54,651 bases of DNA from Phenylobacterium sp. (GTDB lineage Bacteria > Pseudomonadota > Alphaproteobacteria > Caulobacterales > Caulobacteraceae), in assembly GCF_016793225.1 (NCBI RefSeq), contig NZ_JAEUMN010000080.1, positions 1 through 54,651 on the forward strand. The letters run 5' to 3'. Below the pieces are notes generated by a model. That model did not search any database. It saw only the letters and a program-made list of their open reading frames with translations, and was not told the origin of the DNA. The position numbers were made by a program, and so were the translations under genes. Below, piece after piece: positions 4,417 through 45,268 of the stretch (its first letter is position 1; each line of letters begins with the position of its first letter).

Positions 4417-4441
4417 GGAACGGCGCCGCTCCAGACACGTT
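4417..4441 (+). promoter_or_regulatory. EcfG (general stress sigma) promoter for the DUF1328 gene
   Basis: GGAAC at 4417-4421, a 16-nt spacer, then CGTT at 4438-4441. This is an exact match to the known alphaproteobacterial EcfG/SigT consensus (GGAAC-N16/17-CGTT). It lies about 45 bases before the ATG at 4485. Confidence 0.75.
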
Positions 4442-4484: not shown

Positions 4485-4670
4485 ATGCTCGGTTGGGCTC
4501 TGACCTTCCTGGTGGTCGCGCTCATCGCCGGCGTGCTGGGCTTCACTTCGGTGGCCGGCGCGGCGATGGGGATCGCCAAGATCCTGTTCTTCGTCTTCCT
4601 GGTCCTGTTCGTGGTCTCGCTGGTCCTGCACCTCGTGCGTGGACGCGGCGTCGGCCCGGGACCGCTCTAA
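4485..4670 (+). CDS. DUF1328 small membrane protein (YtjA-like)
   Basis: A 61-residue protein with two transmembrane helices ([17 protein letters not shown] and [18 protein letters not shown]) joined by the family's [11 protein letters not shown] glycine/alanine turn. It is typical of DUF1328/UPF0391 in length and pattern. The start at 4485 is set by an excellent ribosome site, GGAGGAGAAA (4471-4480), five bases before the ATG; an upstream in-frame codon at 4440 lies inside the promoter. An EcfG promoter directly precedes it, so it is very likely a general stress gene. Function is unknown; homologues are induced by stress in many proteobacteria. Confidence 0.88.
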
Positions 4671-4684
4671 CGACGTCCTTGCGG

Positions 4685-4721
4685 CTTCCGGCCGGATCGC
4701 AGCCTGCGGTCCCGCCGGAAG
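4685..4721. terminator. Hairpin between convergent genes
   Basis: CTTCCGGC (4685-4692) pairs with GCCGGAAG (4714-4721), and the interior can extend with GATCGCAG/CTGCGGTC. It lies between the end of the DUF1328 gene and the end of the minus-strand metallophosphoesterase gene. No clear U-run follows on either strand, so terminator function is uncertain. Confidence 0.4.
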
Positions 4722-4730
4722 GCGTGGGGT

Positions 4731-5519
4731 CTAGGACTGGGCGCGGCGGTCGAGCGCCCAGGTCCGGTAGGGCTCGTAGCGCGAACCCGTCCAGGCCAGC
4801 GCCGTCACCTTGATGCAGGCGCCTTCGACCTCGATCTCGTTGTACCCCGGCGGGACGCCACGTTCGCGGACCGACAGCGTGCCGGCCCCCACCGCATAGG
4901 TGCGGCCGTCGCCATGCGGGTAGGGCCAGGTGAAGGGCGCGTGGATGTGGCCCGACAGCACCAGGTCCACCCGGGCGCGGGCAAAGACCTCGGCCGCCCG
5001 CTCGCCGCCCCAGACCTTGGCCGTCATCGGCCCCCCGAGCATCTCGATCAGCGGATGGTGCACCACCACGATCCGCAGCGCGTCGCCCGGCGCGAACCAG
5101 TCCGCCGCCGCGCGCGCCTGGCGGACCGAGATCTGGCCCTTCGACCAGTTCAGCCGCGGCTGGGCGCCCCGCGCGGTGTTGAGGCCGCGAACCGCCACCC
5201 CATCGGCGCGCCAGCACTGCGCCTGGGCCGGCCCCACGTGCCGCTCGAACCGCGCGAAGGGCGTGAAGACCCGCTCGAGGGGCGCGAGGTAGGGGGCGTC
5301 GTGGTTGCCGGGGGTGACGAACTTCGGCTCGGGCAGCCCGCGCAGCCATGCGCCGGCCGCCTCGAACTCGGGGTGCTCGGCGAAGCGCGTGAGGTCGCCC
5401 GAGACGATGGTCAGGTCGAAGCCTCCGCCGCGGATCCGTTCGCCCGCCGCCTCGACGGCCGCGGGGTTCTCGCCGCCGAAGTGGATGTCCGACAGATGCG
5501 CGAAGCGGATCGTCTTCAC
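4731..5519 (-). CDS. Calcineurin-like metallophosphoesterase (YfcE/CpdA-type)
   Basis: A 262-residue metallophosphoesterase. All family motifs are present: DIHFGG (D-x-H) near residue 11, SGDLTRF (GDxx), TPGNHDAPY (GNHD), VVHHPLI and SGHIHAPF (GHxH). The metal site therefore looks intact. No signal peptide is seen. The GTG start at 5519 overlaps the TGA of the preceding lipid-kinase gene (GTGA), indicating translational coupling. It is the last gene of a three-gene operon (97-residue membrane protein, lipid kinase, this gene) led by an EcfG promoter. A role in removing phosphate from a lipid or nucleotide product is plausible, but the substrate cannot be assigned. Confidence 0.88.
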   Translation of the reverse strand: MKTIRFAHLSDIHFGGENPAAVEAAGERIRGGGFDLTIVSGDLTRFAEHPEFEAAGAWLRGLPEPKFVTPGNHDAPYLAPLERVFTPFARFERHVGPAQAQCWRADGVAVRGLNTARGAQPRLNWSKGQISVRQARAAADWFAPGDALRIVVVHHPLIEMLGGPMTAKVWGGERAAEVFARARVDLVLSGHIHAPFTWPYPHGDGRTYAVGAGTLSVRERGVPPGYNEIEVEGACIKVTALAWTGSRYEPYRTWALDRRAQS

Positions 5520-6748: not shown

Positions 6749-6773
6749 AACGGCAGGCGTCGCCCTTGGTTCC
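6749..6773 (-). promoter_or_regulatory. EcfG promoter for the membrane protein-lipid kinase-phosphoesterase operon
   Basis: On the minus strand GGAAC (6773-6769), 16 nt, CGTT (6752-6749). It lies about 35 bases upstream of the GTG at 6714. Its -35 element is only 5 bases from the -35 of the divergent plus-strand promoter. Confidence 0.75.
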
Positions 6774-6778
6774 GGAAA

Positions 6779-6804
6779 GGAACTGCGCCTTGGACGACGC
6801 GTTT
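6779..6804 (+). promoter_or_regulatory. EcfG promoter for the glycine-zipper lipoprotein gene
   Basis: GGAAC (6779-6783), 16 nt, CGTTT (6800-6804). It is exact to the consensus and about 37 bases before the ATG at 6841. It forms a back-to-back pair with the promoter at 6749-6773. Confidence 0.78.
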
Positions 6805-6840: not shown

Positions 6841-7182
6841 ATGTTGAAGCCTGTTATCGCGATCGCCGGCGCCGGCCTTCTCGCCGCCGCCTGCACTACC
6901 ACCGGCCATACGGAACGCAGCGCCGTCGGCGGCGCGGCCCTCGGGGCCCTCGGCGGCGCCGCCATCGGCGCCATCTCCGGCGACGTCGGCGTCGGCACCG
7001 GTGCGGCGGTCGGCGCCGCCGTCGGCGGCACGGTCGGCGCCGTCAAGGGCTGCAGGGACGAGGGCGGCTGCGGCGCGACCAACAACAACCGTCGCCAGTA
7101 TTACGACGAGCGCGCCGGCCGCTATTACTACTACGACCCCGCGAGCGGGCGGTACTACTGGGAAAACGGCGCGCCCCGCTGA
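6841..7182 (+). CDS. Glycine-zipper lipoprotein
   Basis: A 113-residue precursor. The signal peptide MLKPVIAIAGAGLLAAAC gives a lipobox LAAAC with lipidated Cys18. A glycine-zipper segment follows (GGAALGALGGAAIGAISG and GTGAAVGAAVGGTVGAVKG), as in the YMGG/OmpA-like 17-kDa surface lipoprotein group. Two further cysteines (KGCRDEGGC) and a Tyr-rich tail (RYYYYDPASGRYYW) complete it. It is probably a periplasmic or outer-membrane envelope protein. GGAG (6827 region) serves as ribosome site. An EcfG promoter precedes it and a strong terminator follows, so it looks like a monocistronic general stress gene. Confidence 0.85.
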   Translation: MLKPVIAIAGAGLLAAACTTTGHTERSAVGGAALGALGGAAIGAISGDVGVGTGAAVGAAVGGTVGAVKGCRDEGGCGATNNNRRQYYDERAGRYYYYDPASGRYYWENGAPR

Positions 7183-7209
7183 GGCGCGGCCGCAGGATGA
7201 TCTGGAAAC

Positions 7210-7238
7210 GGGCGGCCGGACTGATCCGGCCGCCCTTT
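7210..7238 (+). terminator. Rho-independent terminator
   Basis: A perfect 11-bp stem, GGGCGGCCGGA (7210-7220) with TCCGGCCGCCC (7225-7235), loop CTGA, followed by TTT. It ends the glycine-zipper lipoprotein transcript. Confidence 0.85.
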
Positions 7239-7258
7239 CGCCATGAGCGGAGGGCGTC

Positions 7259-7711
7259 ATGAAGACGGCGGCGACGATGGCCGGAATGCTGAGCCTGGCC
7301 GTGGTGGTCTCGGGTTGTCAGACGGTGCGGGACGCACGCGCCCGCCTGGTGCGCGAGCCGAAGGCGTGTCGCGACATGACCATCCCGGTCTACTTCGAAC
7401 CCAACGTCGCGCAGCTGACCGTCGAAGGTCGCCGCGTGATCTCGGCCGCCGCGCGCCAGGCCAGGCCCTGCCGGGTCGAGGCGGTGCGCGTGCTGGGCCT
7501 GGCCGACGCCGCCGGATCCGCGGACGCGAACCTGGACCTCTCCCGCCGGCGCGCCGACGCGGTGGCCCGGGCGATCCTGGCGGCCGGGCTTCCCGCCGCG
7601 ACCTTCGAGGTCGACGCGGCCGGGCAGGCGGGCGCGGTGGCCGCCGACGGCAGCGTAGCCCCCGTCCGCCGCCGCGCCGACATCACCCTGAAGCTGGGCG
7701 ACCCCAGCTAA
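7259..7711 (+). CDS. OmpA-family lipoprotein
   Basis: A 150-residue precursor. The signal peptide ends in a VVSGC lipobox (lipidated Cys20). The rest is a compact OmpA C-terminal-like domain: PVYFEPNVAQLTVEGRRVI, where OmpA/Pal proteins have their YFD...L strand, LGLADAAGS in place of GHTDxxG, and LSRRRADAVARAIL (the NxxLSxxRA helix). The peptidoglycan-binding Asp/Arg pair appears as the Asp in LGLAD and the Arg in LSRRRA. The ATG at 7259 follows CGGAGGGC. No EcfG promoter lies between the terminator at 7210-7238 and this start, so expression may rely on read-through or an unseen promoter. Confidence 0.8.
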   Translation: MKTAATMAGMLSLAVVVSGCQTVRDARARLVREPKACRDMTIPVYFEPNVAQLTVEGRRVISAAARQARPCRVEAVRVLGLADAAGSADANLDLSRRRADAVARAILAAGLPAATFEVDAAGQAGAVAADGSVAPVRRRADITLKLGDPS

Positions 7712-7738
7712 GCCGGGTCGATCCCCACCTCGCCGTCA

Positions 7739-7795
7739 GCTATCGTTCCGGCTTCGGCAGAGCCGAAGGCCGGGACCCATACGCGCCCGATGGCT
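7739..7795. repeat. Degenerate copy of the dispersed palindromic element
   Basis: Positions 7770-7793 match, base for base on the reverse strand, the inner core of the tandem array at the end of the window (CCATCGGGCGCG then TATGGGTCCCGG). The flank 7746-7772 folds as a small hairpin (CCGGCTTCGG with CCGAAGGCCGG). Only one half of the element is left here. The rest of 7712-8140 holds the sRNA candidate and two stress promoters and no protein gene. Confidence 0.6.
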
Positions 7796-7850
7796 GGGAT
7801 CGCCCGCGGGCGCCGCCGCTCGGCCCGCAGTAACCACCCTGAGCCCGGCG

Positions 7851-7882
7851 CAAAGAAGAAGGGGCCGGCGGAAGCCGGCCCC
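7851..7882 (-). terminator. Rho-independent terminator of the sRNA
   Basis: On the minus strand, GGGGCCGGC (7882-7874), loop TTCC, GCCGGCCCC (7869-7861), then TTCTTCTTT (7860-7852). A perfect 9-bp GC stem with a U-rich tail is present only in this direction. Confidence 0.8.
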
Positions 7883-7972
7883 AGTTTGCATCATCGAGAA
7901 AAGGGGTGCGGAGACGGCAGACTGGCAAGCTCGCCAGTCTCAAGTCGGGGGGGGCGTCGCCGCCTCCGCACG
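7852..7972 (-). ncRNA. gsrN: Structured C-rich sRNA, GsrN-like
   Basis: Read on the minus strand. The transcript would open with GUGCGGAGGCGGC (7971-7959), which pairs along 13 bp (one G-U) with GCCGUCUCCGCAC (7918-7906). Inside are an unpaired run of eight C and a nested hairpin AGACUGGC/GCCAGUCU (7940-7933 with 7926-7919). After a pyrimidine-rich linker comes a terminator (stem 7882-7861) and UUCUUCUUU. A near-consensus EcfG promoter ends 7 bases before the transcript. The size (about 120 nt), C-rich target loop, promoter class and closeness to phyR/nepR/ecfG fit GsrN, the SigT-dependent sRNA of Caulobacter. Identity with GsrN is inferred; the fold is read directly. Confidence 0.7.
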
Positions 7973-7978
7973 GTTAAG

Positions 7979-8003
7979 AACACACTCCGCGGAGAAGCGT
8001 TCC
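7979..8003 (-). promoter_or_regulatory. EcfG-type promoter for the sRNA
   Basis: Minus strand GGAAC (8003-7999), 16 nt, TGTT (7982-7979). The first base of the -10 differs from CGTT. The predicted start at about 7972 coincides with the first paired base of the sRNA stem. Confidence 0.6.
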
Positions 8004-8064
8004 GCGCGTTCATCACTTTTTTGCCCGATTTGATTCCGGCCGCCCGAGCGCCCCTCCCGGCGGT

Positions 8065-8090
8065 GGAACACCGCCTTGACCGTCGCGTTT
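8065..8090 (+). promoter_or_regulatory. EcfG promoter for the two tiny membrane protein genes
   Basis: GGAAC (8065-8069), 16 nt, CGTTT (8086-8090), an exact consensus match. It lies about 50 bases before the ATG at 8141. Confidence 0.78.
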
Positions 8091-8140
8091 AGACCGCGCC
8101 GGACGAAGCCCTCCGGCGCCAGGAGCAGAGGCGGCCTCCC

Positions 8141-8350
8141 ATGCGCAGTTCCTTCGTCGCCACCACCGGGCTGAAGCTGGTGCGGACGCCGAGCGCGCGC
8201 CGCCAGGCCGTCCGCCGGCGCATGGTCATCGCAGGCGCTGTCGCGGTCTTCGCGCTGGCGTCCGGAGCCATCGGCTACCTGACCGCGCCCCAGGGCGCCC
8301 CGGACGAAGCGGCCCGCACCGGACCGTTCAGCTACTTCCCGTCGGAGTAA
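8141..8350 (+). CDS. 69-residue single-helix membrane protein, stress-induced
   Basis: Unrecognised family. The N-terminus is basic (residues 11-28, KLVRTPSARRQAVRRRM). One transmembrane helix spans about 29-48 (VIAGAVAVFALASGAIGYLT), and a short acidic, proline-containing tail (APQGAPDEAARTGPFSYFPSE) would be periplasmic. The ATG at 8141 follows a purine-rich AGGAGCAGAGG. An exact EcfG promoter lies just upstream. The next gene begins 11 bases after the stop and encodes a similar small protein, so the two form a bicistronic stress unit. Confidence 0.7.
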   Translation: MRSSFVATTGLKLVRTPSARRQAVRRRMVIAGAVAVFALASGAIGYLTAPQGAPDEAARTGPFSYFPSE

Positions 8351-8361
8351 GGAAACCCATC

Positions 8362-8637
8362 ATGAGCCTTCCGTCACAAGAGTCCGACGACCACGCCCCG
8401 GTCACGAACGCCACGCGCGCCCGGCAGAGCCGCGGGGGGCGTCACATCTTCTGGGTGCTGGTGTTCGGCACTCTGCTGTCGGCCCTGGGCATGTTCGCCG
8501 CATGGACGTGGCGGACCGCCGAAGAACCGGTCCCCGTCGGCCAGGGCATGGAGCGCGTCGACGGCCGGACGACCACCGACACGCCGGCGCCGCCGCCGGC
8601 GGACCGCAGCTACCCGAACGGTCCCGCGCCCAACTGA
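8362..8637 (+). CDS. 91-residue single-helix membrane protein
   Basis: Unrecognised family. A polar, Arg-rich cytoplasmic part (about 1-27, including RARQSRGGRH) is followed by a transmembrane helix at about 28-48 (IFWVLVFGTLLSALGMFAAW). A Pro-rich periplasmic tail ends ADRSYPNGPAPN. Start ATG 8362 follows AAGGAAA. It is co-transcribed with the 69-residue protein from the EcfG promoter at 8065, and a strong hairpin terminator follows. The pair has no enzymatic motif; a structural or signalling role at the inner membrane is possible. Confidence 0.7.
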   Translation: MSLPSQESDDHAPVTNATRARQSRGGRHIFWVLVFGTLLSALGMFAAWTWRTAEEPVPVGQGMERVDGRTTTDTPAPPPADRSYPNGPAPN

Positions 8638-8660
8638 GGCGATCGTCGCCGACCAACGAA

Positions 8661-8688
8661 AAGGGCGCCGCAGAGCTGCGGCGCCCTT
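8661..8688. terminator. Bidirectional terminator
   Basis: AAGGGCGCCGCA (8661-8672) pairs with TGCGGCGCCCTT (8677-8688), loop GAGC. TTTC follows nearby on the plus strand, and TTTTCG follows on the minus strand. It separates the convergent small-protein operon and phyR. Confidence 0.8.
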
Positions 8689-8712
8689 CGCATTTCGGGG
8701 TCGGAGTCCGCG

Positions 8713-9513
8713 TCAGGCCGCCTGGCGGGACGCCTTGCGCGGGTGGAAGAACAGCGCCTGCCCGATCGCCGCCTTCACCGTTTCCGGCTGGAACGGCTTG
8801 GTGATCAGGAAGGTGGGCTCGGGCCGCTCGCCGGTGAGCAGGCGCTCGGGGAAGGCGGTGATGAAGATCACGGGCACGTCGAAGCGCTGCAGGATGTCCT
8901 TCACCGCGTCGATGCCCGAAGACCCGTCGGCCAGCTGGATGTCGGCCAGCACGAGCCCGGGGGTCTGGCGGGCCACGGCGTCGACCGCCTCGGTGCGCGT
9001 GGCGGCGATGTCGACCACCGTGTGGCCGAGCTCGGTCACCAGCGCCTCGATGTCGGCCGCGATCACCGGCTCGTCCTCGATGATCAGGACCTCGGTGGCC
9101 AGCTCGGCGTCGATCTCGGCCTGGGCGTCGGCGATCAGCCGCTCGACCTCGGGGAAATCGGCGCCCAGGATCTCCGCGGCCTCGCTGGGTGTGAAACCCT
9201 CGAGGGCGGTGAGCAGGAAGGCCTGCCGCGAGCGCGGCGCGATCCGCATCAGGCGGCGGGTGGCGTCGTCGACGGCCACGTCGTCTTCCGCGGGGGCCTC
9301 GAGCTGGGCGCCCGACGTGAGCCAGATCGCATGGAACACGTGATAGAGCGCGACGCGCGGGGTCATGTTGTCGGCGAGCGTCCGCTCACCGGCGGCGAGC
9401 GCCTCGAGCGCCACGCGGACGTAGTGGTCGCCGGTCGTCTGGTCGCCGGTAAGCGCACGCGCGTAGCGGCGCACGTACGGTAGATGCGGCGCCAGTCGGG
9501 CTAGAAGACTCAA
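8713..9513 (-). CDS. phyR: General stress response anti-anti-sigma regulator PhyR
   Basis: A 266-residue two-domain regulator. Residues 1-135 form a sigma-like output domain (MSLLARLAPHLPYVRRYARAL ... TPSEAAEILG). Residues 140-260 form a receiver: EVLIIEDEPVIAADIE, phosphoacceptor Asp191 in LADIQLADG, FITAFPERLL and LITKPFQ. Phosphorylated PhyR binds NepR through the sigma-like domain and releases EcfG. The start is the TTG at 9513, preceded by GGGAGGGG; it gives the canonical N-terminus and length. The gene is divergent from nepR-ecfG-phyK and has its own EcfG promoter (9598-9622), so it is under positive feedback. Confidence 0.97.
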   Translation of the reverse strand: MSLLARLAPHLPYVRRYARALTGDQTTGDHYVRVALEALAAGERTLADNMTPRVALYHVFHAIWLTSGAQLEAPAEDDVAVDDATRRLMRIAPRSRQAFLLTALEGFTPSEAAEILGADFPEVERLIADAQAEIDAELATEVLIIEDEPVIAADIEALVTELGHTVVDIAATRTEAVDAVARQTPGLVLADIQLADGSSGIDAVKDILQRFDVPVIFITAFPERLLTGERPEPTFLITKPFQPETVKAAIGQALFFHPRKASRQAA

Positions 9514-9597
9514 AGGGGTACCCCTCCCGTTTTCGAAGTTCGAGCGTGGGCGCCGGACGCAGGCGAGCTTCCCTGGCCGGACCCCATCATGGGCGAA

Positions 9598-9622
9598 AAC
9601 GTGAATACGTGGAACCGGTTCC
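9598..9622 (-). promoter_or_regulatory. EcfG promoter of phyR
   Basis: Minus strand GGAAC (9622-9618), 16 nt, CGTTTT (9601-9596). Its -35 is half of the 12-bp perfect palindrome GGAACCGGTTCC (9611-9622). The other half is a plus-strand GGAAC followed 17 nt later by GGTTTT, a weaker possible second promoter for nepR. Confidence 0.8.
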
Positions 9623-9662
9623 CATCGGACGAGGTTTTCCGCATCTTGTTCTGCGAAGAGCG

Positions 9663-9688
9663 GGAACCCGTCGCGGGGGCAGGACGTT
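9663..9688 (+). promoter_or_regulatory. EcfG promoter of nepR-ecfG(-phyK)
   Basis: GGAAC (9663-9667), 17 nt, CGTT (9685-9688), an exact match. The transcript would begin near 9695, so the TTG at 9687 cannot be the nepR start on this mRNA; the ATG at 9747 can. Confidence 0.75.
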
Positions 9689-9746
9689 GAGCGGTCGCAA
9701 GACAGACGAGAGGGGGCGGGCTCCGCGCGAGCGGGTCGCCGACGAA

Positions 9747-9935
9747 ATGATAGAACAACGTCCACTCCCCGAGCGCAGGAGGGCGGCCGCCGCCCTGGAC
9801 GAAGCGCGCCTGCGCCAGCAGGCGATCGGCGTGCGCCTGCGCCAGATGTTCGACGAAGTGGTGAACGAGGCTGTTCCGGACGAGTTCCTGGAGATCCTCC
9901 GCCGCGCCGACGAGCGTGGATCGGGAAAGTCCTGA
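9747..9935 (+). CDS. nepR: Anti-sigma factor NepR
   Basis: A 62-residue NepR. The family core RLRQMFDEVVNEAVPDEFLEIL (two short helices around VPDEF) lies at about 30-51 and is flanked by charged, disordered ends. NepR binds EcfG in unstressed cells and is captured by phosphorylated PhyR. I chose ATG 9747 over the TTG at 9687 because the TTG overlaps the -10 of the EcfG promoter and 62 residues is the usual size. Its ribosome site is weak. The stop overlaps the ecfG start (ATGA), giving coupled, near-stoichiometric synthesis of sigma and anti-sigma factor. Confidence 0.9.
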   Translation: MIEQRPLPERRRAAAALDEARLRQQAIGVRLRQMFDEVVNEAVPDEFLEILRRADERGSGKS

Positions 9936-10546
9936 TGGAACCCGCAACCGAACAGAAGGCGCGCCCGCCGCGCACGCCCGAGGACGACGCCGCCTTCAAG
10001 CGCGAACTCGTGCAGCTCATCCCGCACCTCCGGGCGTTCGCGCGCACGCTCTGCGGCGATCCGACCGCGGCCGACGACCTGGCGCAGGACGCCATGATGA
10101 AGGCGTGGGACGCCCGGGCCAGCTTCCAGATGGGCACGAACATGAAGGCCTGGACCTTCATGATCCTGCGCAACCAGTTCTATTCCGAGAAGCGCCGGTC
10201 CTGGCGGCAGAGCCAGCTGGACCAGGAGGCGGCCGAGCGGACCCTGGTGGCCGTGGACGACCCCGAGGCCCCGGTGGCCCTGGACGAACTGCGCCAGGGG
10301 CTGGCGATGCTGCCGGCCGAGCAGCGCGAGGCCCTGATCCTGGTGGGCGCGGGCGGCTTCGCCTACGAAGAGGCGGCCGAGATCTGCAACTGCGCGGTGG
10401 GCACGGTGAAGAGCCGGGTGAGCCGCGCGCGCCGGGCGCTCCACGCGATCCTCGAGCAGGGCGAGTACGACCGCGACGGAGCCTCCGCCGGCGACGCGAT
10501 GCGTTCTATCCTGGCCGACGCGGAGCGGCTAAGCAGCGTCCGGTAA
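9935..10546 (+). CDS. ecfG: ECF sigma factor EcfG (SigT), general stress sigma
   Basis: A 203-residue ECF15-type sigma factor. Region 2 (about 20-95) includes LIPHLRAFARTLCGDPTAADD, LAQDAMMKAWDARASFQMG and MKAWTFMILRNQFYSEKRRS. Region 4 (about 125-185) includes LRQGLAMLPAEQREALILVGAGGFAYEEAAEI and the recognition-helix segment CAVGTVKSRVSRARRALH. It directs RNA polymerase to GGAAC-N16/17-CGTT promoters, of which this window contains many. It is translated by ATGA overlap from nepR and followed by phyK after 9 bases. The phyR/nepR/ecfG arrangement is the classical GSR core. Confidence 0.97.
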   Translation: MEPATEQKARPPRTPEDDAAFKRELVQLIPHLRAFARTLCGDPTAADDLAQDAMMKAWDARASFQMGTNMKAWTFMILRNQFYSEKRRSWRQSQLDQEAAERTLVAVDDPEAPVALDELRQGLAMLPAEQREALILVGAGGFAYEEAAEICNCAVGTVKSRVSRARRALHAILEQGEYDRDGASAGDAMRSILADAERLSSVR

Positions 10547-10555
10547 GGACGTCGC

Positions 10556-12265
10556 ATGGCCCCGTGGAGTTCGCTGAGCACGATCCGGGTGCGTCTGATC
10601 GCGGCGCTCGCCGCGGCGTTGCTCCCGGTTCTCATCCTGGGCGCGCTGCAGTCCGCGATCGGCTTCCAGCGCGAAGGGCGCACGCTGCGCGAGAATCTGG
10701 GCTTCGCCGCCGAGCGCAGCGCCGCCACGGCGCGGGCGCGGCTGGAGAGCGCGGAAGTCCTGCTGCAGACGCTCGCCCCGGGCGCCGTGGGCTTCCAGTG
10801 CCAGGAACGCCTGGCGCAGGTGACCACGCGCATCCCGGGATACCTGAACCTCATCCGCTTCGACCGGCAGGGCCGCGTGGTGTGCGCCGCCGGCGGCGTG
10901 CCCGCCGACCCGCAGCGCGCCGGACGCGCCTGGTTCCGTGAGCTGGCGGGCGGCCGGAACGTCGCCTTCACGCAGGAGCCGGGCCTGCCGCTGGCGCGGG
11001 AGCCGGCCGTGCTGGCGGCGGCGCGGGCCACGACCGTGGACGGCGCCTTCGACGGCGCGTTCGCGGCGGTGATCTCGCTGGCCACCCTGCAGCCCCGGAC
11101 CACCGACCCTTCCTTGCCGCGCGGCGCCGAGGTGGGCCTGGTGGAGAAGGACGGCCATTACATCAGCGTCACGGACGCCGGCGCCTTCCCGCAGCTGCCC
11201 GCGGACTGGCGCGCCAAGGTGGACGCCACCGGCACGCTCGTCTGGTACGGCCGCGACGGCCTGGGCCGCCGCAGGGTCTATTCCGCCGCCCCGGTGGTGG
11301 GCGACGAGGTCTATGTGGTGCTCTCGGCGCAGTCGCCCGGGCTGCTCTCGTGGGCGCGGCTGAACCCGCTTTCCGGCATCCTCTTCCCGCTGCTGACCTT
11401 CCTGTTCGCCCTCGTGGCCGTCTCAGCGGTCACGGGTCGGGTGGTGGTGCGCTGGATCGAGTACCTGCAGCGGATCGCGGCGCTCTACGCCCGTGGCCGC
11501 CTGTCGGTGCGCCCGGTGCAGGCCGAGCAGATGCCGCCCGAGATCCGCGAACTGGCCGAGACCCTGGAGGACATGGCCGACGCCATCGTCGGCCGCGACG
11601 CGTCCCTGCGCGACAGCCTGGCGCAGAAGGACGAGCTGATGCGCGAGATCCACCATCGGGTGAAGAACAACCTGCAGGTCATCTCGAGCCTGCTCAACAT
11701 GCAGCAGCGCGCCCTCACCGATCCGGCGGCGCGGTCGGCCATGAGCGACACCCGCCAGCGGATCACCGCCCTGGCCCTGATCTACCGCGCCCTCTACCAG
11801 GGCCCGGACCTGAAGCGGGTCGACCTGCGCCCGTTCCTCGAAGAGCTCACGGCGCAGCTGGTGAACGGCGAGCTGGTCCACGGGCAGACGGTGCGCACCG
11901 AGCTGTCGGTCGACACCCTGGTCATCGATCCCGACCGCCTGGCGCCGCTGGCGCTATTCGCCGTCGAAGCCATCACCAATGCGCAGAAGCACGCCTTCGC
12001 CAACCGCGGCGGCGTGCTGAAGCTCGAGTTCACGGTGCGCGGCGAAGAGGCCGAGCTGGCCATATCGGACGACGGGGCGGCCACGGACGCGGCGCTGGCC
12101 ACCTCGGGGGTCGGACGCACGCTGATGAACGCCTTCGCGCGGCAGCTCCGTGGCCGCGCCGAGCTGGCGCGTAATCCGGCGGGCGGCGTGACGGCGCGGC
12201 TGCTCTTCCCGACCCCGTCGGCGGACATCTCGGCGCCCGTCCGGGGGAACCAGGCCGCCGCCTGA
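10556..12265 (+). CDS. phyK: Membrane sensor histidine kinase PhyK (HisKA_2)
   Basis: A 569-residue kinase. TM1 is at about 13-32. An extracytoplasmic sensor domain of about 240 residues (35-270) contains Cys82 and Cys110, TM2 lies at about 272-298, then a HAMP-like linker. The HisKA_2 phosphoacceptor box is MREIHHRVKNNLQVISS (His366/367), and the ATPase domain has AVEAITNAQKHAFANRGG (N-box) and ISDDGAA. In Caulobacter PhyK is the kinase/phosphatase for PhyR and is encoded beside sigT, as here. ATG 10556 follows TAAGGAC. The gene is probably co-transcribed with nepR-ecfG. Its last bases carry the EcfG promoter for the next gene. Confidence 0.93.
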   Translation: MAPWSSLSTIRVRLIAALAAALLPVLILGALQSAIGFQREGRTLRENLGFAAERSAATARARLESAEVLLQTLAPGAVGFQCQERLAQVTTRIPGYLNLIRFDRQGRVVCAAGGVPADPQRAGRAWFRELAGGRNVAFTQEPGLPLAREPAVLAAARATTVDGAFDGAFAAVISLATLQPRTTDPSLPRGAEVGLVEKDGHYISVTDAGAFPQLPADWRAKVDATGTLVWYGRDGLGRRRVYSAAPVVGDEVYVVLSAQSPGLLSWARLNPLSGILFPLLTFLFALVAVSAVTGRVVVRWIEYLQRIAALYARGRLSVRPVQAEQMPPEIRELAETLEDMADAIVGRDASLRDSLAQKDELMREIHHRVKNNLQVISSLLNMQQRALTDPAARSAMSDTRQRITALALIYRALYQGPDLKRVDLRPFLEELTAQLVNGELVHGQTVRTELSVDTLVIDPDRLAPLALFAVEAITNAQKHAFANRGGVLKLEFTVRGEEAELAISDDGAATDAALATSGVGRTLMNAFARQLRGRAELARNPAGGVTARLLFPTPSADISAPVRGNQAAA

Positions 12266-12271
12266 AGCGTT
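12246..12271 (+). promoter_or_regulatory. EcfG promoter inside the 3' end of phyK
   Basis: GGAAC (12246-12250), 17 nt, CGTT (12268-12271). It starts within the last phyK codons and lies about 45 bases before the entericidin-like gene. Confidence 0.72.
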
Positions 12272-17646: not shown

Positions 17647-17856
17647 GGCGCCGCTCGACGCGGCGCGTGCTGCGGGCGCCGAGGCCCGCCATCTCCACAT
17701 GCGCTCCGGGGAACCACGGCCTCCAGAGCTGTTCCGCGCATCGCGCCCGACGTCACCCGCCCGTTCCTCGCCTGAGGCGGCTCCAGCGGCCGCCGTCTTC
17801 GAAGACAGGTACGGATCGCGGCGGCCGGAGGCTTCAACCGGCGGGCGCGGCGAATC

Positions 17857-44991: not shown

Positions 44992-45105
44992 TCCGTCCCC
45001 CGGCGACGCTTGAGCCCCGGGGCCCGGCGTCCTACGTTACGCCTCGGCGGGTCTTGCTGCGGCTCGCGTCGAAGGCAACCAAATTCCAGCGACCTTAATT
45101 CACTC

Positions 45106-45268
45106 AACGGGAGCTGTCCCTGCCCGGGATCGTGGTCTCAGGCACACGGCGCCCACCTGGTCTATCCAGGTCGAGGGAATTGAACAGTCCTTCACGGCTC
45201 CCGCGGCGCCGCCACCCATCCTCCCCGAGCCTCCGCACGCCCTGCGGCGGGATCCGGCCGGCTCCGCC
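45106..45268 (+). ncRNA. ssrS: 6S RNA
   Basis: About 160 nt directly upstream of the 5-formyltetrahydrofolate cyclo-ligase gene, the usual home of 6S RNA. The ends pair: GGAGC (45110-45114) with GCTCC (45261-45265). Inside, the strand CCTGCCCGGGATCG faces a G-rich arm near 45243-45258, and ACGGCGCCCACCTGG ... CCAGGTCGAGGG forms the apical hairpin (CACCTGG with CCAGGTC). A -10-like TTAATT (45095-45100) precedes it. 6S RNA mimics an open promoter and binds the housekeeping RNA polymerase. The exact ends are estimates. Confidence 0.8.

Follow-up and report, generated by a model that had tools for sequence, protein, structure and literature searches.

Two questions are raised by a structured stretch on the minus strand of the DNA examined here, a window of 54,651 nt from Phenylobacterium sp. 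(assembly GCF_016793225.1, contig NZ_JAEUMN010000080.1): does its general stress response (GSR) locus carry a gene for a small RNA (sRNA) of the GsrN type, and which messages would such an RNA act on? In the established pathway, PhyR frees the sigma factor EcfG from NepR under stress. GsrN (ccna_R0081), an sRNA cited to Landt et al. 2008 in the account of Tien, Fiebig and Crosson (2018, PMC5869019), is described there for C. crescentus as stabilised by Hfq, processed to a stable 5′ isoform of 51-54 nt and pairing with katG mRNA through seven nucleotides, including four of the six C of its loop. This mRNA is the best-studied C. crescentus target, and the authors' description of the homologues does not make it a defining criterion. 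In the same account, BLASTn detects homologues only in Caulobacter, Brevundimonas and Phenylobacterium; they share a conserved C-rich loop at the 5′ end and, except in C. crescentus, are usually found close to ecfG, nepR and phyR.

The RNA structure at 7851-7975 behind an EcfG-type promoter is real, and its elements are collected with the neighbouring genes in the table below. Folding 7856-7975 gives a minimum free energy of -62.7 kcal/mol, where shuffled sequences average -41.1 (z -5.9); none of 200 dinucleotide shuffles is as stable, and folding 7851-7975 yields the identical structure. A sequence-only reading of the window had claimed a 13-bp closing stem and an eight-C loop, both of which are seen in this fold, together with a GC terminator, which is indeed an all-GC stem followed by a U-rich tail, and a nested hairpin of 8 bp, a fair description of a helix with nine pairs, one of them G-U. 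The eight-C run occupies 7947-7954. The 5′ end of the RNA would lie at approximately 7974-7970, a few nucleotides past the -10 element, and the 3′ end within the U-rich tail. The linker stretch UCGAUGAUGC, which by eye recurs in the majority of the Phenylobacterium and Brevundimonas sequences aligned, is a possible second seed or contact, or an Hfq site.

Features of the gsrN region and the adjoining GSR locus (positions in the window)
Feature	Position	Strand	Basis or remark
gsrN homologue (very probable), sRNA gene of ~120 nt	7851..7975	minus	RF01529 match 7863-7967; alignment of relatives
EcfG/sigma-T-type promoter GGAAC-N17-GTT, GGAACGCTTCTCCGCGGAGTGTGTT	7979..8003	minus	motif search
Closing stem, 13 bp	7971-7959 paired with 7918-7906	minus	fold prediction
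Closing-stem 5′ arm	7959..7971	minus	fold; covariation
Closing-stem 3′ arm	7906..7918	minus	fold; covariation
C-rich recognition loop, 18 nt, GACGCCCCCCCCGACUUG (GACG-C8-GACUUG)	7941..7958	minus	fold
Nested hairpin, 9 pairs including one G-U	7919..7940	minus	fold
Unpaired linker, 23 nt, contains UCGAUGAUGC	7883..7905	minus	fold
Intrinsic terminator stem-loop, 9-bp all-GC stem	7861..7882	minus	fold and separate terminator scan
U-rich tail UUCUUCUUUG after terminator	7851-7860	minus	
OmpA-family gene, convergent with gsrN	7259..7711	plus	Pfam OmpA
Small ORF between gsrN and phyR	8141..8350	plus	EcfG-type site 8065-8089; no Pfam family above cut-off
Second small membrane-protein-like ORF	8362..8637	plus	sub-threshold DUF6463
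phyR	8713..9516	minus	Pfam PhyR_sigma2, PhyR_sigma-like, Response_reg; start codon approximate
Open frame containing nepR	9546..9935	plus	Pfam NepR, residues 91-124
ecfG (sigT-type) ECF sigma factor	9935..10546	plus	Pfam Sigma70_r2 and Sigma70_r4_2
HWE/HisKA_2 histidine kinase, GSR locus	10556..12265	plus	Pfam HisKA_2, HWE_HK

An Rfam scan of the whole window gave two matches above cut-off, RF01529 and RF00013. The first of these families (CC3552, Caulobacter sRNA), whose name presumably stems from the Landt 2008 survey, matches 7863-7967 on the minus strand with 82.5 bits (cut-off 50), which answers the covariance-model search that the sequence-only reading had suggested as a check; the match spans model positions 1-106 of 106, and no structural difference from the family was seen. 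It is the single match in the Phenylobacterium sp. genome, and the control genome, that of Caulobacter vibrioides, was also positive. The second match is a 6S/SsrS RNA at 45051-45213 on the plus strand, whose 47.8 bits lie slightly above the cut-off of 46.4. SorY (RF02651) and AniS (RF02274), which resemble the Phenylobacterium RNA in being short sRNAs with a GC-rich terminator, were rejected as families for it, the scores of 24.2 bits (cut-off 111) and 24.6 bits (cut-off 50), respectively, being far below what membership requires.

Among 398 sampled Caulobacterales genomes, RF01529 was found in 73 (70 with a match over the cut-off), all of them Caulobacteraceae, and at least 20 genomes of that family were without a match; all counts out of 73 leave aside weak second matches (35-37 bits, lacking a promoter) in four Brevundimonas genomes, G368, G290, G295 and G285. 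After removal of one duplicate (G285, identical to G338), 72 copies were aligned and used to build a covariance model, R1, with which the window's copy scores 101.5 bits by construction, as one of the model's own rows. At E 1e-5 or better, R1 gave matches in five of 20 Caulobacteraceae genomes missed by RF01529, all from a Brevundimonas-like genus, and in six Phenylobacterium genomes without an RF01529 match it gave E 0.058 or worse. Across 385 sampled alphaproteobacterial genomes (E 0.001, strict filters), five matched, of which three are Caulobacteraceae and two are weak and unconfirmed. We strongly infer that RF01529 is the same RNA as GsrN, because its distribution and placement agree with those of the homologues described in PMC5869019, and because the katG leaders of two genomes with a six-C loop (G116 and G270) fit the seven-nucleotide pairing given there.

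The 72-copy alignment bears directly on whether the stems are under selection as RNA. Standard pairs make up 95.3% of its pair cells, and changes on both sides, the compensatory signal whose comparison across relatives had also been proposed at the outset, occur in 19 of 25 pairs: in six of the 12 alignment pairs of the closing helix, in all six modelled pairs of the nested hairpin among relatives and in all seven of the terminator. The covariation score of 0.323 exceeds the 0.197 of shuffled alignments, with none of 500 shuffles as high, and slid-pairing controls reach at most 0.078. The high GC content of the region and its only slight excess of terminator-like sites (three against 1.0 expected at 7000-9000, a scan that is weak alone) might point to a repeat or to a fold that arose by chance, but the probability of this reading is close to nil: the stability relative to dinucleotide shuffles and the single genome match speak against it, and the covariation refutes it. 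As to the claim that nothing protein-coding explains the paired blocks, open reading frames do overlap the gsrN stretch, yet the homologues vary like RNA stems.

The near-consensus stress promoter that had been read at the right distance from the RNA is present as GGAAC-N17-GTT at 8003-7979, and its placement is conserved. In 65 of the 73 homologues, among them every one of the 11 from Phenylobacterium, the model start is preceded at 9-12 nt by GGAAC-N16..18-GTT, a motif that chance would place there at about 0.001 per locus; the remaining eight retain GGAAC and have, by eye, a -10 element of ATT type. phyR is similarly fixed, lying on the same strand and on the upstream side at 1,155 nt or less (median 571) in 65 of the 73 copies, and eight copies have no phyR within the fetched stretch; in the window, the gap between gsrN and phyR is 746 nt, in line with the distance of less than 1 kb first reported. 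A location 3′ of phyR in the same orientation is also what would be expected if the structure were a terminator and 3′-UTR element of a minus-strand transcript, for example phyR readthrough, with no independent sRNA gene. That reading is extremely unlikely in the face of a promoter sequence kept at a fixed distance in those 65 relatives, of a promoter and loop retained where the fetched locus has no phyR (for example in G270 and G116), and of the C. crescentus RNA, for which PMC5869019 maps a separate start and describes a promoter that depends on sigT. The interval 7851-7975 is thus very probably the gsrN homologue of this Phenylobacterium, adjacent to the GSR locus and provided with an EcfG-type promoter of its own, as the sequence-only reading had proposed, an identification favoured by the RF01529 match, the placement of promoter and phyR, the covariation and the complementarity of the katG leaders in G116 and G270.

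EcfG-type sites are enriched in the window, where the motif search gave 12 sites although 2.45 would be expected, and none of 100 shuffles had as many. Two of them, at 9598-9622 on the minus strand and 9611-9636 on the plus strand, overlap divergently between phyR and nepR-ecfG, a pair that suggests shared autoregulation of both arms, and one more plus-strand match lies at 9663-9688. A further divergent site at 8065-8089 on the plus strand, ~60 nt from the gsrN promoter, precedes the two small ORFs (8141-8637), the first of which has relatives at three of 10 other Phenylobacterium loci and the second in some Phenylobacterium and many Caulobacter loci. Other matches are found at 4417-4441, 6749-6773, 6779-6803, 9864-9888, 12246-12271 and 17710-17735. 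The OmpA-family gene adjoins gsrN in many relatives as well, and the start of nepR is probably situated well inside its open frame, because the NepR domain covers only residues 91-124.

In favour of the identification, the window's PhyR found no counterpart at E 1e-30, a threshold that a divergent PhyR could escape, in 10 of 12 Caulobacteraceae genomes probed that are without an sRNA match. Of the six Phenylobacterium listed without the sRNA, four are among these 10; against the identification, the remaining two (G315 and G341) carry phyR, and neither R1 nor a view of the 1.5-kb flanks revealed a recognisable gsrN in them. At the G315 locus (L311), an EcfG-type site stands directly 3′ of phyR, from 2273, and is followed by a different small ORF; the one TAA within the phyR match probably represents the stop codon of phyR itself, given that an ORF ends at 2256.

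Compared with the C. crescentus GsrN of PMC5869019, the Phenylobacterium RNA (~120 nt) is alike in its short length (~100 nt in C. crescentus), in its sigma-T/EcfG-type promoter and in a C-rich loop near the 5′ end, closed by a stem to which that end belongs. The two differ in the C-run of the loop (eight against six), in placement, the gene being beside phyR in Phenylobacterium sp. and distal in C. crescentus, and in katG, a target in C. crescentus that was not found in Phenylobacterium sp. Across the 73 copies, the C-run is 5-9 nt long, plus one of 14, and across 78 pure-C loop matches, a set that overlaps the 73 copies in species, it is 6-8 nt. Four of its C (C25-C28, as counted along the first sequence) are invariant in the 72 aligned copies. 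The run of 14 occurs in the copy of genome G335 (L064, 6213-6324), where it reflects either homopolymer expansion or an assembly error; eight of the 11 Phenylobacterium copies have eight C. A phase-variable run was considered and is not favoured, because the lengths are largely stable by genus. The legend of Figure 9 in PMC5869019 also describes Rhizobiaceae GsrN-like RNAs with an EcfG site, a position near the GSR locus and an exposed C-rich 5′ loop; R1 found no sequence homology to them in the 385 sampled alphaproteobacterial genomes.

By analogy with C. crescentus, the gene would work as follows. Under stress, PhyR would release EcfG from NepR, and EcfG would then transcribe an RNA of ~120 nt from the promoter at 7979-8003; the promoter sequence is present, and the dependence on EcfG is taken from C. 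crescentus. Fold and covariation show the C-rich loop (GACG-C8-GACUUG) held open by the long stem that includes the 5′ end of the RNA, and the loop could pair with G-rich stretches of mRNAs, altering their translation or stability as C. crescentus GsrN does. Stabilisation by Hfq and processing may likewise apply to the Phenylobacterium RNA. A predicted GsrN contact listed in Table 1 of PMC5869019, UCAAGUCGGGGC, is complementary to the Phenylobacterium loop over 11 of 12 nt.

The katG example, carried over from Caulobacter in the sequence-only reading, did not hold for this genome, in which neither TIGR00198 nor PF00141 found a match in the draft assembly. The search covered 50 of the 73 GsrN-bearing genomes (all 35 non-Brevundimonas and 15 of 38 Brevundimonas) and detected katG with TIGR00198 in 38; besides Phenylobacterium sp., 11 of the other 49 were without a match, and PF00141 agrees in all 12 negatives, which include four of 10 other Phenylobacterium. 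Ten of the 12 katG-less genomes keep the loop GACGCC..CGACTTGAG, the exceptions being G225, one base off, and G383, which departs further. katG alone cannot explain the conservation of GsrN, because 12 of 50 genomes are without detectable katG and 10 of these 12 keep the loop, whose constraint must stem at least in part from other targets.

Where katG is present, its leader (the 100 nt before a start placed by a simple rule) was searched in the 38 genomes for the longest complement to the loop, each longest match being compared with shuffles. A p of 0.05 was reached by none of 18 Caulobacter and none of six Phenylobacterium leaders, and by one of 14 Brevundimonas leaders (p 0.045), whose match, TCTCAAG, is not G-rich. 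In eight of the 18 Caulobacter leaders, the longest complement is G-rich, 6-8 nt long and located at -39 to -47, a pattern seen in none of the 14 Brevundimonas or six Phenylobacterium leaders. These Caulobacter matches are individually non-significant (best p 0.055), and the eight are not independent, because four leaders are near-identical and those of G116 and G270 are near-identical to each other. The latter two genomes, C. crescentus-like, with a six-C loop and no phyR in the fetched locus, carry GTCGGGG in the katG leader, complementary to the loop and fitting the seven paired nucleotides, including four of six C, given in PMC5869019. A wider scan for TCGGGG in the 250 nt before katG found 10 of 38 against 5.2 expected: three of 18 Caulobacter at -8 to -44 (with the G116 start placed differently), five of 14 Brevundimonas at -164 to -210 and two of six Phenylobacterium at -137 (G086) and -172 (G335). 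Some of these distant sites could be real if katG transcripts start that far away.

These data also bear on the reading that the homologue acts mainly through katG activation and that katG is missing here only through the draft assembly. The assembly has 197 contigs and 97.5% completeness, most GsrN-bearing genomes searched do have katG, and TCGGGG occurs far upstream in the two katG-bearing Phenylobacterium just mentioned; against this, neither model detects the gene in a further 11 GsrN-bearing genomes, of which some are assembled in one or two contigs, and within 100 nt of the start the six Phenylobacterium katG leaders offer best loop complements of only 4-6 nt (p 0.255 or more). We therefore regard this reading as highly improbable, and the link to katG is probably a Caulobacter feature.

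Candidates for a replacement target in Phenylobacterium sp. were also considered. Its genome encodes a KatE-type catalase, which was rejected in this role, as its own leader has no matching G-tract. Matches of the TCGGGG or CGGGGG type occur at scattered positions within ~800 nt upstream in seven of 12 catalase leaders from nine genomes, counted with no shuffle control. Genome-wide, loop complements with up to one mismatch number 24, gsrN included, against 30 in a reversed control, and the single perfect 12-nt complement outside gsrN was discarded, as it lies antisense to what by eye resembles a coding frame (L266, plus strand, 4601-5284).

The gene itself is less novel than first implied, because Phenylobacterium homologues were published in 2018 (PMC5869019): it is an ordinary, well-conserved copy of a kind already reported there and in Rfam. 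The missing katG with a retained loop is the sole part that goes beyond the published work found in a literature search. With no katG found in Phenylobacterium sp., the mRNAs bound there should be other ones, and its GsrN probably acts on messages other than katG. Whether this extends to the family, in that the ancestral or main job of GsrN is not katG activation, the katG-less Caulobacteraceae keeping the loop for other G-rich mRNAs and katG having been recruited only within Caulobacter, is a proposition that we consider evenly balanced. The homologue indicates that Phenylobacterium has kept, at the stress locus itself, a branch of the general stress response that acts post-transcriptionally, and the GsrN-bearing genomes with no detectable katG make the core targets of GsrN a directly testable question.
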